In this document: positions 7,279-43,108 of the stretch, piece by piece
Position numbering within the stretch: the stretch's first letter is position 1
How the letters are laid out: every line of letters begins with the position of its first letter
IMG/VR virus record: IMGVR_UViG_3300025000_000186
Location: 1-43,653 of that record
DNA: 43,653 nucleotides
Reading direction: 5' to 3' (one strand)
Origin: a virus
Notes under the pieces: model-generated
Told to the model about the DNA's origin: nothing
Databases searched by the model: none
Seen by the model: the letters and a program-made list of their open reading frames with translations, nothing else
Program-made: the position numbers and the translations under genes

Positions 7279-7452
7279 ATGGAATACAAAGAATATTTTC
7301 CTCGTGAAAATAGGCATTTTATCGGGACTGCGGCCGGATTAACTCAGCTTGGGACAACTGGCTTTTCAGCTGGTGATGATTATACAGTAGTCGATGGTGC
7401 TGGCAACATAACAGATTTTTATATGTACGGTGAAGGTGCTTGGAACCATTAA
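7279..7452 (+). CDS. 57-aa hypothetical virion-region protein
   Basis: I choose ATG 7279 over the in-frame GTG at 7270, because AAAGGG then lies 9 nt upstream. The protein is Gly- and aromatic-rich (NRHFIGTAAGLTQLGTTGFSAGDDY...) and lacks hydrophobic spans. It ends just before a strong AAGGAGG for the next gene, so the two are probably coupled. It could be a small structural or assembly protein; I do not recognise it. Confidence 0.5.
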   Translation: MEYKEYFPRENRHFIGTAAGLTQLGTTGFSAGDDYTVVDGAGNITDFYMYGEGAWNH

Positions 7453-7465
7453 GGAGGGTAAAAAC

Positions 7466-8152
7466 ATGGATCAAAATTTCATTAAAATAAAAAAAATCAA
7501 CGAACAATTGGCGGCTATTGCGCAACAGTATAAAAATGATTTTTTTATCACATCGACAATTGAACCTTGGGTAAATGCTGCAATTGCTTCTGGTACGTTT
7601 GCAGGAGCGGCTGGAACCGCAAAGCATCCTGGAGTAGTAACATTGCTTTCATCTACTTCTGCAAACTCTGGACATAGAGTTAATCTTTATGCAGAAGCCT
7701 TTTTGCTTGGTGGTGGAGAAAAAACAACAGGTATTTTTAAGGTTGTTACCTGCGCTGGTACGACCGTAAGATTTGGCTTTCATGATACCACTAGTGAAGC
7801 AGATGTTAATGATGGGGTATACATTGAAATTGCAGAAACTACACTTACAGGTAAAACGGCTAATGCTGGCACAAGGTCAACTACTGCTACAAACTACACG
7901 ATAACAGAAAATACATGGTATCGTTTTGTTATTGAAGTAAATTCAGATGCTACTCTAATAACTTACAGTATTTACGCAGATGATAGCGGCACCGCGTTGT
8001 GGATAGATACCTTAGCAACAAATATACCAACCGGAGCAAACAGGTATTGTGGTCAAGGCATTGTAGCAACAAACAGCGGGACAACGGCATTATCTTTAGT
8101 GTCACTTGATTATATGGATATTGCCTTGCAGAATGCAAGGAGGCTTTCTTAA
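7466..8152 (+). CDS. lectin-like (jelly-roll) putative virion fibre protein
   Basis: This 228-aa protein starts behind an excellent AAGGAGG. After a short helical N-terminus (QNFIKIKKINEQLAAIAQQY) it is all-beta in appearance. The alternating pattern (VNLYAEAFLLGG, TTVRFGFHDTT, TWYRFVIEVNSDATLITYSIYADDSG) resembles concanavalin A-like or laminin-G-like sandwich domains that bind glycans. It overlaps the downstream esterase start by one nucleotide. Together they may form a surface fibre or decoration on the head. Family assignment is by pattern only. Confidence 0.55.
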   Translation: MDQNFIKIKKINEQLAAIAQQYKNDFFITSTIEPWVNAAIASGTFAGAAGTAKHPGVVTLLSSTSANSGHRVNLYAEAFLLGGGEKTTGIFKVVTCAGTTVRFGFHDTTSEADVNDGVYIEIAETTLTGKTANAGTRSTTATNYTITENTWYRFVIEVNSDATLITYSIYADDSGTALWIDTLATNIPTGANRYCGQGIVATNSGTTALSLVSLDYMDIALQNARRLS

Positions 8153-10911: not shown

Positions 10912-11901
10912 TTGCAAGAGGAAATCATTATCAGAGTATTGGACAGGGCATCGGAATCATTAACCAATGAGCAGATCAACGAGCTCCGGAATATTCTATG
11001 TGAAGTGCTGCAGGAGTATACTGTTTCGCATGCATGTACGGCACTGGCACTATCCAACAATTTATCAGGTATGATCAGGCTATACCTGGCATCTAAAAAG
11101 CTTGACGGATTGTCAAAAAAGACTATTAAAAATTATCTCCTGATTCTTGACAAATTTGCTGAAAACATTCACATCGATGCAGAGTCTATTAATGCTATGA
11201 CGATAAGAATGTTTTTAGCCCAGTATTCAAAAGCTGGTGTTAAAAACAGTACCATGGCAACCATTATTAGCGTTTTAAAATCCTTTTTTTCATGGTTGCA
11301 TACAGAGGAATACATACCTAAAAACCCAATGAAAAAGATTCAAACAACAAAGTTCGAGAAGAGAGTCCGTAAGGCACTATCACAGGAAGAATTGGAAATG
11401 CTGAGATTGGCCTGTAAATCTTTAAGAGAAAAGGCTTTGGTTGAATTTTTCTATTCTACCGGCTGTCGGCTCTCCGAAGTAATGGCACTGAACCGAGATG
11501 ATATTAACTGGGGCACAGATTCCTGTATGGTGATCGGCAAGGGAAATAAGGAACGGCAAGTTTTTATAAATGCAAAGGCCAGGGTACATCTATGGAGGTA
11601 TTTGGATAGTCGTAAAGATCAGACAGAAGCTTTGTTTGTGTCCGATAAGAAACCACATGCAAGATTGCAAAGCAGGTCAATAGAAGATGTTTTTAAATTT
11701 TTGGGGAAACGTGCCGGAATAACTCAACATGTTTTTCCTCATTTGGTTCGGCATACCACGGCTACGGCTCTTTTGAACAATGGAGCAAGCCTGGCTGCAG
11801 TACAAAGAATACTAGGGCACGAAGACCCTGCTACAACTCAAATTTATTGTGCCTTGGATATCGATGAGATCCAGATGACCCACAGAAAACATTTAGCATA
11901 A
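10912..11901 (+). CDS. XerC/D-type tyrosine recombinase
   Basis: This 329-aa recombinase has an N-terminal SAM-like core-binding domain (about residues 55-145; SKKTIKNYLLILDKFAENI) and a C-terminal catalytic domain. The catalytic set is visible: STGCRLSEV (Arg, near 186), HLVRHTTAT (His and Arg, near 276-279), LGHED (His, near 302) and QIYC (Tyr nucleophile, near 312). The start is TTG behind GGGAGG. It is inserted between capsid and connector genes, far from the lysogeny region. The serine integrase at 27316 is the probable phage integrase, so this enzyme may resolve dimers, invert DNA or mobilise this island. Confidence 0.9.
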   Translation: MQEEIIIRVLDRASESLTNEQINELRNILCEVLQEYTVSHACTALALSNNLSGMIRLYLASKKLDGLSKKTIKNYLLILDKFAENIHIDAESINAMTIRMFLAQYSKAGVKNSTMATIISVLKSFFSWLHTEEYIPKNPMKKIQTTKFEKRVRKALSQEELEMLRLACKSLREKALVEFFYSTGCRLSEVMALNRDDINWGTDSCMVIGKGNKERQVFINAKARVHLWRYLDSRKDQTEALFVSDKKPHARLQSRSIEDVFKFLGKRAGITQHVFPHLVRHTTATALLNNGASLAAVQRILGHEDPATTQIYCALDIDEIQMTHRKHLA

Positions 11902-27315: not shown

Positions 27316-28689
27316 CTAAAAATGTATGCTCACTCTATCATCTGGATAAATTCGTACAGCTTTAACATATTTGCTTAATAACAATCTTTTTTTGGCAGGG
27401 GAAGTCTCAGCTCTGACTTCTTCCATTACATTTTTTAATTCTCTTTTTATAGTCTCTTGAGAGTTCTTTTTTATTTCACTATTGATAGCTTTAAGTTTTG
27501 CCTCACACTCATCTTTTACTTTCCTATATTCCTCAATGGTAAAATCCTCACTCAAATATGCAGCTTTTGCTCTGGCTTTTTCCTTCTCAATTCTATCGAC
27601 TTGGTTTTTAGCTATATAATCTATAGATCTATCACTTTGCACGATGGCCTCCTGTCCTTCAATTATGTATTCTATTCCTTTCAATACTTGATTTTCTAAT
27701 TGATCAGCAGGATGATATTTACTATTGCTGCATCTTAATGTATTTTCATGCATCTTGTGACCACTGCAGACATAATAATAATAAGATTCTCCGTTCCTTT
27801 GTTTCCTAACATTTTTCCAAGATGCGTGAATGCCCATTTTTTTACCGCACACACCACACCGGGCTAATCCCAATAACATAAACTTTAATTCGTTCTTGCC
27901 TTTTGGTTCTCTTTTACACATTCTATCCACCAAATATTTTTGCGCCAATTCAAAGGTGCTGTTTTCTATTATTGGCTCATGCAAACCTTTGTAGATCTCT
28001 CCTGCATGTTTAATGTAACCAATATACTTAATATTTTTTAAAATATATAGTATGGTGTAATGATTCCATACGCACCCAGGCACAGGAGAAGATATGCCGT
28101 TTTCAGCAAGCCAATTTGATATTCTGGGAGTGCCATAGCCTTCATTGTACATGTTGAATATTTTTTTAACAACAGCCGCTTGTTCCTGATTTATACACAT
28201 GTGTCCCTTTTCTGTTGTGTACCCATAAGGAACCGACCCATTACTTAGTCCTTGTTTCACCCTTTCTCGCATACCTTTTTTGACTTCCTGGGCCAAATTC
28301 TTGATATAATACTCTGCCATTAGCTCGTGTAGTCCTGATACAAAGAATCCCATAGGATTATCTTCTATAGGTTCCGTGATCGATACTACGTTTATATTGC
28401 ACTTACTCAATTGCCCCTTTATTCTTTGTGATAGTTCGACTTTTCGGGCAAATCTATCGTATTTGTGAACTAAAATAATATGGAATTGCTTGCTTTCTGC
28501 ATCAGTTATCATTTGTTGGAATTGTGGCCTGTTTTCCTTTTGCCCGGAAATACCTTCATCTGCATATATTTTGTATACTTCAATATTTTCTTTTTTGCAG
28601 TATGCAGTTAATAAGTTTGTTTGTGCTGTCAAAGAATAACCCTCTACTTGCTCATCGGTTGACACTCTGACATATAGAGCTGCTTTCAC
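27316..28689 (-). CDS. int: large serine recombinase (phage integrase)
   Basis: This 457-aa enzyme catalyses attP x attB integration. The resolvase domain begins MKAALYVRVSTDEQVEGYS, with the nucleophile Ser10 and the HKYDRFAR block. The recombinase domain (about residues 150-260) contains PYGYTTEKG and the zinc ribbon CGVCGKKM (about 281-288) paired with CSGH and further Cys. A coiled coil at about 365-430 regulates directionality. The start is GTG behind AAGAAGG. It is the last gene of the leftward lysogeny operon, following the pheromone gene. No recombination directionality factor is identified. Confidence 0.95.
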   Translation of the reverse strand: MKAALYVRVSTDEQVEGYSLTAQTNLLTAYCKKENIEVYKIYADEGISGQKENRPQFQQMITDAESKQFHIILVHKYDRFARKVELSQRIKGQLSKCNINVVSITEPIEDNPMGFFVSGLHELMAEYYIKNLAQEVKKGMRERVKQGLSNGSVPYGYTTEKGHMCINQEQAAVVKKIFNMYNEGYGTPRISNWLAENGISSPVPGCVWNHYTILYILKNIKYIGYIKHAGEIYKGLHEPIIENSTFELAQKYLVDRMCKREPKGKNELKFMLLGLARCGVCGKKMGIHASWKNVRKQRNGESYYYYVCSGHKMHENTLRCSNSKYHPADQLENQVLKGIEYIIEGQEAIVQSDRSIDYIAKNQVDRIEKEKARAKAAYLSEDFTIEEYRKVKDECEAKLKAINSEIKKNSQETIKRELKNVMEEVRAETSPAKKRLLLSKYVKAVRIYPDDRVSIHF

Positions 28690-28812: not shown

Positions 28813-28944
28813 TTATTTAAGCAGGTGCTTTGGCGTTTTAGGTTGGTTTATTAAAAACCATGATGCGGGCAATGCTGCGAGAGATCCAATTGCAAGCATT
28901 AATGATGCCACAACCGCCAACACTTTAGATGATACTTTTGCCAT
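28813..28944 (-). CDS. agrD-like: AgrD-like cyclic-lactone pheromone precursor
   Basis: This is a 43-aa precursor from ATG 28944, eight bases after AAGGAG; ATG 28950 is too close. An amphipathic basic N-terminus and hydrophobic leader (MAKVSSKVLAVVASLMLAIG) leads to PASWFLI, then NQPKTPKHLLK. The tail matches the AgrD C-terminal pattern xQPKxPxxL. The ring position, usually Cys, is Ser28, so the predicted signal is a Ser-Trp-Phe-Leu-Ile lactone, spaced like clostridial AgrD (ring of five, then H/N-Q-P). AgrB would be needed for processing and none is in the window. It lies between the receptor-like gene and the integrase on the same strand. Confidence 0.88.
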   Translation of the reverse strand: MAKVSSKVLAVVASLMLAIGSLAALPASWFLINQPKTPKHLLK

Positions 28945-29010: not shown

Positions 29011-29886
29011 TCAATTATTTACTGCGTGTAATAGCTCCGTCACCATCTTCATAGTTTTTTCATCCTTGCCCTTATCAGCTTCATCATAGATATCGACTAG
29101 TTTGCTTGTTATTTTGTCTCTCTGGCTTTCCTTATATTCTTTTTCGTACATATCCACTGCGATTCTGTTTATATAGTTCCTTACTATTACCTCCGAAAAA
29201 GCCATCAAAACGACAAATGGTATTATAAACAGCATCGAACATGCAAACAGGGCGTACATTGGACTAAATGATAAGAATGCGCCGTCAATTGCTACCAGTT
29301 TTGCCAAGAATAAAATATAGATAAATATTACAACTAATACTATCGTGGAGTTTTTTGTCAGGTCCTTATCTACTTTTACAATAGAAATTAAACTGACATC
29401 AACAGGCCTATTCTTAAATAAGAATTTTAATTTCTTAAATGCTGCCAAGTATAAAATTGAATACTGTATCATTCTTTCTGGTGTAGAAACCAAAAATCCT
29501 ACCAAAGGGTTGTTCTGTATTTCCGACAGCGATATGTGGGTAGCACTCATTATCATACTTACACACATTAAATCAGTACCGCCATAGATAACCATAGATA
29601 CAAAAACTGTAAGAAAAACTTTAAACACATTCTTTCTTGAAAGCACGGTAAACATGATGGTATTTACTATCAAGCCCATAACTATGCTTAAATTTTCATC
29701 AAGCCCGAACATCTTAGGCATATTTGCCAGTAAAGCTGGTAAGATGATTAGTAATAATTTTTTATTCCTATTTGCCTGGAATATAGATAATCCTTTTAAT
29801 ACAACAATTGCCATCATTGATATAAAAAATTGTTCAGGCAATGCTATTAAAATGGTGTACATTAAATAATGCAAAATGCTATTCAT
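29011..29886 (-). CDS. AgrC-like membrane receptor lacking a kinase domain
   Basis: This is a 291-aa protein from ATG 29886 behind GGGGGAGG; ATG 29892 is the alternative. It shows six or seven spans (about residues 5-30, 42-60, 66-84, 90-118, 138-160, 175-197 and 208-235), then a charged cytoplasmic helix ending LVDIYDEADKGKDEKTMKMV. This layout matches the sensor half of AgrC/FsrC receptors, but the His-kinase dimerisation and ATPase domains are absent. It lacks the AgrB GGxHA...C catalytic motif. It overlaps the repressor gene and precedes the pheromone gene, so a role as the pheromone receptor acting on the repressor is inferred. Confidence 0.72.
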   Translation of the reverse strand: MNSILHYLMYTILIALPEQFFISMMAIVVLKGLSIFQANRNKKLLLIILPALLANMPKMFGLDENLSIVMGLIVNTIMFTVLSRKNVFKVFLTVFVSMVIYGGTDLMCVSMIMSATHISLSEIQNNPLVGFLVSTPERMIQYSILYLAAFKKLKFLFKNRPVDVSLISIVKVDKDLTKNSTIVLVVIFIYILFLAKLVAIDGAFLSFSPMYALFACSMLFIIPFVVLMAFSEVIVRNYINRIAVDMYEKEYKESQRDKITSKLVDIYDEADKGKDEKTMKMVTELLHAVNN

Positions 29887-30265
29887 TCGCATTCCCTCCC
29901 CCAGTGTTGATTCTAAAAGTGAATTCCAATTTGTTCAGCATGTTTGCGGGTATATCTTTTGATATATTATACGCAAACTCCAAATAGGCTTGATTTTCTG
30001 CTTTTAAAGCCCATTCAATAAGTTGTTTTCTCTGTTCGTTGTTGCTGTCTATAGTTTCCATTCCTATTTTATAGCCATATAATTCCTTTAGGCTCATTCC
30101 AAACGCTGTTGCGAACTTTTGTATTGTAATAGAATCCGGATTGGTTTTTAAGTTCGCAATATCTGACATTGTTGCCTCGGAAACCCTGGCTTTCTTTGCC
30201 GTTTCCTTTTGTGTCCATCCTTTTTTATTAACTATGTGCATTATTACCTGCCTAATGTCTTCCAT
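29879..30265 (-). CDS. XRE-family lysogeny repressor (CI-like)
   Basis: This is a 128-aa regulator. Residues 1-65 are a helix-turn-helix domain (IVNKKGWTQKETAKKARVSE, then ATMSDIANLKTNPDSITIQKF). Residues 70-128 form a helical domain (EQRKQLIEWALKAENQAYLEF) that could mediate dimerisation or bind a partner. There is no LexA/CI-type autocleavage domain (no Ala-Gly and Ser-Lys dyad), so classical RecA-induced self-cleavage is unlikely. It is transcribed leftward from a consensus promoter and overlaps the receptor-like gene. The divergent gene is a Cro-like protein, a standard lysis/lysogeny pair. Confidence 0.88.
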   Translation of the reverse strand: MEDIRQVIMHIVNKKGWTQKETAKKARVSEATMSDIANLKTNPDSITIQKFATAFGMSLKELYGYKIGMETIDSNNEQRKQLIEWALKAENQAYLEFAYNISKDIPANMLNKLEFTFRINTGGGNANE

Positions 30266-30312: not shown

Positions 30313-30351
30313 GCTAATGAGAATTATATTAGCATTTTCGCGAAATGTCAA
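30313..30351 (-). promoter_or_regulatory. leftward lysogeny promoter with embedded operators
   Basis: On the minus strand, TTGACA (30351-30346), 17 nt and TATAAT (30328-30323) form a perfect consensus promoter for the repressor operon. The palindrome TTTCGCGAAA (30336-30345) fills the spacer, and GCTAAT/ATTAGC (30313-30318 with 30328-30333) flanks the -10. These are probable operators for the repressor or the Cro-like protein. Confidence 0.75.
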
Positions 30352-30402: not shown

Positions 30403-30431
30403 TTGAATAATTCGCTAGAATGAATTATAAT
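30403..30431 (+). promoter_or_regulatory. early rightward promoter
   Basis: TTGAAT (30403-30408), 17 nt and TATAAT (30426-30431) drive the Cro-like gene and the early operon. AATTCGCT (30409-30416) lies in the spacer and recurs near 30293 on the other side of the control region, a likely operator half-site pair. Confidence 0.75.
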
Positions 30432-30462: not shown

Positions 30463-30765
30463 ATGAGAGGTACAAGAATAACTGAGAAGTTTATAAAATA
30501 CATCGGCAAAAGCCCATCTGATTTTGCGGAATTCACTGACAAAATAACTTGTGCGAGGGTAAATTTTCAAAGCGGCAAAAAAAGGGGTCGCGGGTTAAAG
30601 CTTGAAGAGGCTGCAAAAAAACTTGATATATCAGCAGGGTATCTTTGCGAGCTAGAAACAGGTAAAAGAAATGTACCAAGTTATATTATAGTTAACAAAC
30701 TAGAGGACGTATACAATTTTAATCCTGGAGAATTAGCCAATTCTTTAAAGGTGGCGATAAGATGA
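30463..30765 (+). CDS. XRE-family Cro-like regulator
   Basis: This 100-aa protein is the first gene of the early rightward operon. It has a helix-turn-helix (GLKLEEAAKKLDISAGYLCE, then LETGKRNVPSYIIVNKLEDV) in the C-terminal two thirds. It has an unusual 45-residue N-terminal extension, MRGTRITEKFIKYIGKSPSD. It is preceded by AATGGGGTG and a consensus promoter, and diverges from the lysogeny repressor. By position it should antagonise the repressor operon. Confidence 0.82.
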   Translation: MRGTRITEKFIKYIGKSPSDFAEFTDKITCARVNFQSGKKRGRGLKLEEAAKKLDISAGYLCELETGKRNVPSYIIVNKLEDVYNFNPGELANSLKVAIR

Positions 30766-42456: not shown

Positions 42457-42562
42457 CGCAAAACAAAGAGATTCAAAATTAGTAAAATCCAGTATTTGAG
42501 ATTTAGCTCGAATAATACAGAATGTGTTTTAAGTATTATTGAAAATGCAAGAAGGTGGAAAA

Positions 42563-43108
42563 ATGAAGGTCGTACAACCTATACGTGAAAAAACTAAAAT
42601 TGATGAGATAAAAAAGATATTAAAAGAAAAAAATGAGCGAAATTATATCATGTTTGTTATTGGTATTTATACAGGACTCAGAATTAGTGATATTTTACAG
42701 TTAAAGGTAAAAGATTTAAAAAACCAAGATTATATTATCCTGAAAGAGAAAAAGACCAAAAAGAGCAGCCGCATATTCATTAATCCGATATTGAAGCGTG
42801 ATTTAAAGAAATATCTTGAAAACCGGATTGAGGATGAATATATTATTAAATCTCGGAAGGGAATTAATAAACCACTGCAACGAGATATGGCATATAAACT
42901 TTTAGCCAAAGCCGCAGAAGAACTTGGCATGGATGAGATAGGTTGTCATACAATGCGCAAGACATTCGGATATCACTATTACTCCAAGAAAAAGGATATT
43001 GGCTTTCTAATGCAACTCTTTAATCATTCTAAGGAGAGCATTACATTGAGATACATTGGGGTTAACCAGGACATGAGAGACAAAGCTATGAAAGATTTCA
43101 GGTATTAA
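42563..43108 (+). CDS. minimal tyrosine recombinase
   Basis: This is a 181-aa protein from ATG 42563 behind AGAAGGTGG. It is essentially only the catalytic domain, with no full N-terminal SAM-like domain. The set is TGLRISDILQL (Arg, near 39), CHTMRKTFGYHYY (His and Arg, near 128-131), LFNHSKES (His, near 154) and LRYIG (Tyr, near 163). Proteins of this kind lie just before HNH/terS in many Firmicutes phages. The role is unknown; a function at cos or in genome circularisation is possible. Confidence 0.85.
   Translation: MKVVQPIREKTKIDEIKKILKEKNERNYIMFVIGIYTGLRISDILQLKVKDLKNQDYIILKEKKTKKSSRIFINPILKRDLKKYLENRIEDEYIIKSRKGINKPLQRDMAYKLLAKAAEELGMDEIGCHTMRKTFGYHYYSKKKDIGFLMQLFNHSKESITLRYIGVNQDMRDKAMKDFRY

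Follow-up and report, generated by a model that had tools for sequence, protein, structure and literature searches.

Organization of the locus

The window, a viral sequence of 43,653 nucleotides (IMG/VR record IMGVR_UViG_3300025000_000186), carries a gene for an AgrD-family signal precursor as the last member of an HTH-PEQ-AgrD operon. Leftward from position 30265, the order is HTH, PEQ, AgrD and a large serine recombinase; another HTH gene, starting at 30463, is read in the opposite direction. The features are as follows, from left to right.

27316 to 28689, minus strand: large serine recombinase (integrase), 457 aa; Resolvase (E 1.4e-31), Recombinase and Zn_ribbon_recom domains; PHROG 95 integrase
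28813 to 28944, minus strand: AgrD-family signal precursor, 43 aa; TIGR04223 match; ORF with Shine-Dalgarno; amphipathic leader, ring and QPKTPKHLLK tail
28849 to 28863, minus strand: predicted ring codons Ser-Trp-Phe-Leu-Ile, from the sequence, the alignment with PEQ-linked AgrDs and a Ser lactone precedent (PMC5322536)
29011 to 29892, minus strand: putative PEQ receptor, 293 aa; several predicted TM segments and a C-terminal helical tail; kinase-less, AgrC-like; match to a 44-member profile
29879 to 30265, minus strand: Cro/CI-type HTH protein, 128 aa, likely phage repressor; HTH_3, E 4.5e-9
30323 to 30351, minus strand: sigma-A type promoter TTGACA-17-TATAAT of the HTH-PEQ-AgrD operon; perfect, 12/12 matches
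30403 to 30431, plus strand: divergent promoter TTGAAT-17-TATAAT; 10/12 matches
30407 to 30428, no strand assigned: operator-like dyad ATAATTCGCTAGAATGAATTAT, between the -35 and -10 elements of the divergent promoter
30463 to 30765, plus strand: divergent Cro-like HTH protein, 100 aa; HTH_31, E 1.9e-7; first gene of the rightward (lytic/early) side

The start of the PEQ gene overlaps the end of the HTH gene by 14 nt, agrD lies 66 nt downstream of PEQ, and the serine recombinase gene is found directly downstream of agrD. Elsewhere in the window, two ORFs (10912-11901 and 42539-43108) are tyrosine-recombinase-like by appearance, one of them inside the late-gene region. The terminase is nearest to those of a Desulfosporosinus MAG and of Paenibacillus prophages.

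The signal precursor and its predicted ring

The agrD reading frame spans 28950-28813 on the minus strand. Initiation at the upstream in-frame ATG (28950) gives 45 aa; the second ATG (28944) has a better-spaced Shine-Dalgarno, AAAGGAG, 8 nt away, and yields a 43-aa peptide, MAKVSSKVLAVVASLMLAIGSLAALPASWFLINQPKTPKHLLK. This peptide scores 34.2 bits (E 2e-8) against the NCBIfam family TIGR04223 (quorum_AgrD), above the curated cut-off of 19 bits, which rules out a chance ORF and bears out the AgrD-like peptide with Ser28 numbering that an earlier note had placed at 28813-28944.

The codons TCA TGG TTT TTA ATA (28863-28849) specify S-W-F-L-I, followed by Asn and QPKTPKHLLK; the QPKxPxxL tail is intact. 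Ser28 occupies the position of the ring-closing Cys in most AgrDs, so that homology upholds the note's claim of a Ser at the nucleophile site. It also favors the five-residue ring that the note had predicted: all AgrDs linked to PEQ genes in our alignment keep the spacing [C/S]xxxx-[Y/H]QP, and the window peptide (SWFLI-NQPK) likewise has a five-residue ring opened by Cys or Ser before the residue preceding QP[K/E]. The residue after the ring is atypical, as it is Asn here and Tyr or His in every PEQ-linked AgrD, and this could affect cleavage by AgrB. As the signal, we predict the five-residue lactone SWFLI, closed by Ser28.

We collected AgrDs from 391 genomes of class Clostridia and from 82 genomes of the class to which the best terminase match, the Desulfosporosinus MAG, belongs, and read their neighbors. 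Among AgrDs with only an AgrB nearby, 46 have Cys and 5 have Ser (5/51 Ser), while those directly downstream of PEQ with no AgrB nearby comprise 29 Cys and 23 Ser (23/52), the AgrDs of two prophages described below being counted among the Ser cases. This excess of Ser corresponds to a Fisher p of 1.2e-4, which is descriptive only as the sequences are related. We therefore rejected the idea of Ser as a rare oddity. The statement in the earlier note that such a signal would be distinct from most host signals fails on the same counts, as Ser is about as common as Cys in this AgrD class.

A nearer precedent for a Ser lactone than those cited in the note is the C. thermocellum AgrD Clo1313_2818, from which a five-residue lactone (Ser25-Phe29) was identified by LC-MS/MS against a synthetic standard (PMC5322536, Verbeke 2017). 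The authors found no agr operon, AgrB or receptor for this AgrD (PMC5322536). In our set, one peptide (L116) fits the Clo1313_2818 numbering (A24, S25, F29, Y30, P35, counted from the second Met) and has a PEQ gene directly upstream; a further peptide (L188) also fits it. The ring predicted for the window AgrD resembles that of Clo1313_2818, a five-residue Ser lactone with the motif [S]xxxx-YQP, and neither AgrD lies in an agr operon. Clo1313_2818 differs in being chromosomal, downstream of a C26-PEQ pair, whereas the window AgrD is in an operon with a likely phage repressor. Taken with the Ser/Cys counts, this precedent argues that a Ser ring is a normal variant in the PEQ-linked AgrD class. 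Both ring types can occur in a single genome: in L310 (6578-8974), PEQ-AgrD pairs stand side by side in tandem, the ring being of the Cys type in one pair and of the Ser type in the other.

A family of putative kinase-less receptors

No significant Pfam, NCBIfam, PHROG or PDB match was obtained for the 293-aa membrane protein encoded upstream of agrD. Single-protein searches returned nothing in phages, plasmids, viral and genome contigs, or the 82 genomes of the Desulfosporosinus MAG class, because the receptor is too divergent; its relatives were reached only via AgrD neighbors. From the neighbors of chromosomal AgrDs, we built profiles of a family defined here and named PEQ after its N-terminal [S]xPE[Q] motif. 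AgrD is directly downstream of 43 of the 44 chromosomal PEQ genes. The window protein belongs to this family both by its AgrD, located directly downstream, and by its match to the profile of the 44 chromosomal PEQs, from which it had been left out. The match scores 46.7 bits, with an E-value of 1.4e-12 for 10,000 sequences, against a maximum of 7.9 bits in 500 block-wise shuffles. It is 25% identical to the receptor of one Clostridia prophage, L199 (E 1e-19). In the order of Paenibacillus campinasensis, a phage-type PEQ was found in 0 of 392 genomes, no more than 6 candidates being scored in each. The PEQ motif was also observed in a 150-aa protein whose gene immediately precedes that of AgrB in ordinary agr loci of the Desulfosporosinus MAG class (L055, L062, L072 and similar loci).

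The PEQ profile matches the sensor half of 452-474-aa proteins with SPOB_a and HATPase domains (GHKL kinases), three of which (L108, L123, L125) had been fetched as AgrD loci. Furthermore, the profile tail NNEIIQNIEYISSLIEEKNYDEAKKALESL aligns with the kinase hairpin HDFYNHLTAIYGYIKACHYDQAETYIENL (HDFYNHL), with Asn at the phospho-His. Based on these sensor-half matches and on the tail alignment, PEQ looks like an AgrC receptor reduced to a sensor and a His-less, DHp-like hairpin, with no ATPase. In the window protein, the domain scan gave no HATPase match and the family alignment has Asn at the His position; the DHp-like character of the tail is less clear there and in a second prophage, L252, than in chromosomal PEQs. 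The tail of the window protein was modeled as a helical hairpin with local pLDDT of 65-86, in a whole-receptor model (from two sequences) that is otherwise poor (mean pLDDT 47.9) and unusable outside the C-terminal tail. That the 293-aa protein might itself be an AgrB was rejected, as it has no PF04647 match and AgrB-PEQ-AgrD operons exist.

A module shared by prophages

The five genes of the module (divergent HTH, HTH, PEQ, AgrD-Ser and serine recombinase) are collinear in the Clostridia prophages L199 and L252. The window HTH protein is 39% identical to that of L199 and retrieves L252/L259 by tblastn (E 1.3e-20), and its C-terminal part (YxxFAYN..IP) is conserved across the three phage modules. 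The divergent HTH protein is 49% identical to its L199 counterpart and is also conserved in L252; the recombinase is 31% identical to that of L199. Both prophage AgrDs have a Ser ring (ASFWVF-YQP in L199, ASWWAF-YQP in L252). The virion genes of L252 are unrelated to those of the window, but the two phages share the module and a ParB-like early gene (55% identical), which indicates that the module moves between phages. In L252, the HTH frame (7400-7880) has no ATG, GTG or TTG near GGAGGTG, and its start may be ATT or CTG.

The best intergenic dyad lies 35-58 bp before the divergent start codon in the window, L199 and L252. An equally good dyad at that distance was seen in 12/300, 3/300 and 0/300 shuffles, respectively, while taken alone the window dyad is no better than shuffles (199/300). 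A second operator copy was considered and is significant in L199 only, not in the window or L252. The placement of the dyad in three modules is what a repressor operator would look like, and we regard it as a candidate operator.

Outside phages, HTH-PEQ-AgrD, C26-PEQ-AgrD and AgrB-PEQ-AgrD cassettes are common on chromosomes of the same bacterial order. In the chromosomal loci L119, L116, L127, L154 and L188, a C26 glutamine-amidotransferase-like gene lies directly upstream of PEQ-AgrD, often with Ser rings. A fuller set with its own AgrB occurs in prophages L191/L192, L195/L196 (also in the IMG/VR contig L206) and L201. AgrB and HTH-PEQ-AgrD are convergent in prophages L191-L194 (G503), L195/L196/L206 (G397) and L201 (G469); the two copies of the set in G503 are about 63 kb from each other, and in L201 an insertion sequence lies between HTH and PEQ. 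One AgrB-bearing prophage type has a Cys ring, hence Ser is not essential to the idea of a phage signal.

Maturation of the signal

No match to AgrB (PF04647) was found anywhere in the window record. In the genomes of both collinear prophages, G507 (L199) and G506 (L252), AgrB is encoded outside the module: in G507 it adjoins a nadA-like gene and has no AgrD (L264), and in G506 it has its own AgrD (L271). More generally, most genomes with chromosomal PEQ-AgrD cassettes have an AgrB, often an orphan with no AgrD and usually beside nadA. Orphan AgrBs of this kind, usually next to nadA (quinolinate synthase), were noted at L129-L136 and L264, in genomes with scattered PEQ-AgrD cassettes. In G190, a genome whose completeness is not reported, PEQ-AgrD is present and the AgrB search gave no match. 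Considering the AgrBs outside the module in the prophage genomes, the orphan AgrBs and the prophages with an AgrB of their own, an AgrB of the host or of a phage is the likely maturation enzyme.

A proposed communication module in the lysogeny switch

We propose that the lysogeny switch incorporates a phage communication module whose signal is this peptide, with a kinase-less receptor and maturation by host AgrB, a reading to which we assign a probability of about 0.6. The earlier note overlooked three elements of it: the record without AgrB, the kinase-less AgrC-like receptor, and the lysogeny-switch operon common to other prophages. One strong promoter would drive the genes for the CI-like HTH repressor, for PEQ as the AgrC-type receptor and for the AgrD precursor. 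By binding the dyad in the divergent promoter, the repressor would hold down the Cro-like gene and the early genes. Host AgrB would cut and cyclize AgrD into a Ser-Trp-Phe-Leu-Ile lactone, which would build up outside the cell as lysogens or infected cells become more numerous, and would bind PEQ. The cytoplasmic helical hairpin of PEQ, a kinase DHp minus its histidine, may then alter the activity or location of the HTH repressor; a high signal would most likely favor lysogeny. The link between receptor and repressor is suggested by operon structure and conservation. The weakest points of the model are the atypical Asn after the ring and the identity of the window's host, hence the AgrB that would accept this peptide.

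A bacterial PEQ-AgrD unit could instead have been picked up as a moron, with which the phage sends or senses a host-directed signal to alter host behavior, the HTH gene being adjacent by chance. The abundance of the three kinds of chromosomal cassette in the same bacterial order speaks for such an origin. However, three phages share homologous HTH, receptor, AgrD, recombinase and divergent HTH genes in one common order, the window's HTH gene overlaps that of the receptor, and the C-terminal part of the HTH protein is conserved with the module; we hold this explanation to be unlikely. We give still less weight to the view that Ser28 marks a degenerate, unprocessed AgrD in a decaying cassette that makes no cyclic peptide. 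The record without AgrB and the Asn after the ring would fit decay, but Ser is kept in L199, in L252 and in 23 of 52 PEQ-linked AgrDs, the QPKxPxxL tail and the receptor and HTH frames are intact, and C. thermocellum does produce its Ser peptide, in cyclic form (PMC5322536).

The least probable alternative, in our estimation, takes PEQ as a partner in AgrD maturation or export that replaces AgrB, rather than as a receptor, so that the phage unit would make its own signal. PEQ-AgrD pairs are indeed located apart from AgrB, and G190, of unreported completeness, has such a pair with no AgrB match; yet AgrB-PEQ-AgrD operons exist, PEQ aligns with kinase sensor domains, and an AgrB, often orphan, is present in most PEQ-AgrD genomes.

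Going beyond the window, the proposed module may represent a separate class of phage communication, in which a lactone matured by host AgrB acts on a kinase-less surface receptor of AgrC type, which in turn controls a CI-like repressor with no phosphorylation step; many chromosomal HTH-PEQ-AgrD cassettes would be wired in this way too. We see the chances of this wider proposal as evenly balanced. If it is true, phages depend on their host to finish the signal, and host AgrB content would shape phage behavior. For the C. thermocellum-type Ser-lactone AgrD, PEQ and the orphan AgrB next to nadA then become candidates for the receptor and the processing enzyme, respectively, and a non-phosphorylating form of Agr signaling becomes directly testable.

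Comparison with known systems

Neither a lysogeny operon that includes a kinase-less receptor of AgrC type nor the PEQ family was found described in the open-access papers covered. The agr system (AgrBDCA) of S. aureus and Clostridia shares with the window an AgrD precursor, and the membrane half of the window receptor is homologous to AgrC-like sensor domains. In contrast to agr, the window record has no AgrB, its receptor lacks HATPase and phospho-His, and the partner is a Cro/CI-type HTH protein; a scan of nine window proteins around the module revealed no AgrA LytTR response regulator.

Phage-encoded Agr elements have been described in phiCDHM1, which carries AgrB, AgrD and a HATPase-bearing AgrC (agr3 genes; Hargreaves 2014, PMC3901668). 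This temperate clostridial phage encodes an AgrD as the window does, but with its own AgrB and with an AgrC that has a HATPase. Furthermore, the flank next to its agrD overlaps an endolysin gene, and it is therefore not the lysogeny operon found here. Phages Davies, Emery and Abouo carry AgrB, a putative AgrD and kinase-less membrane proteins (Hargreaves et al., PMC3901668). The Brevibacillus phages Abouo and Davies thus resemble the window in combining a phage AgrD with kinase-less membrane proteins, and the Abouo AgrD also has Ser, but they have their own AgrB and a different arrangement. Their membrane proteins were rejected as PEQ homologs, scoring at noise level (at most 9.4 bits) against the PEQ profile. 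A Ser stands at the expected ring start of the AgrD candidates of both Abouo (L279, 27422-27550) and Davies (L278, 28164-28283).

The proposed module would resemble arbitrium (AimR-AimP-AimX) in linking the choice between lysis and lysogeny to a peptide that the phage encodes and the cell secretes. The 128-aa window HTH protein has HTH matches and no TPR match, and so lacks the RRNPPA/TPR character of AimR. Arbitrium relies on a linear peptide that is taken up and on a cytoplasmic RRNPPA receptor, whereas a cyclic lactone and a membrane receptor are predicted for the window. If our reading is true, the lysogeny decision of temperate Clostridia phages is governed by a cyclic peptide of Agr type, and not by a linear one as in arbitrium.
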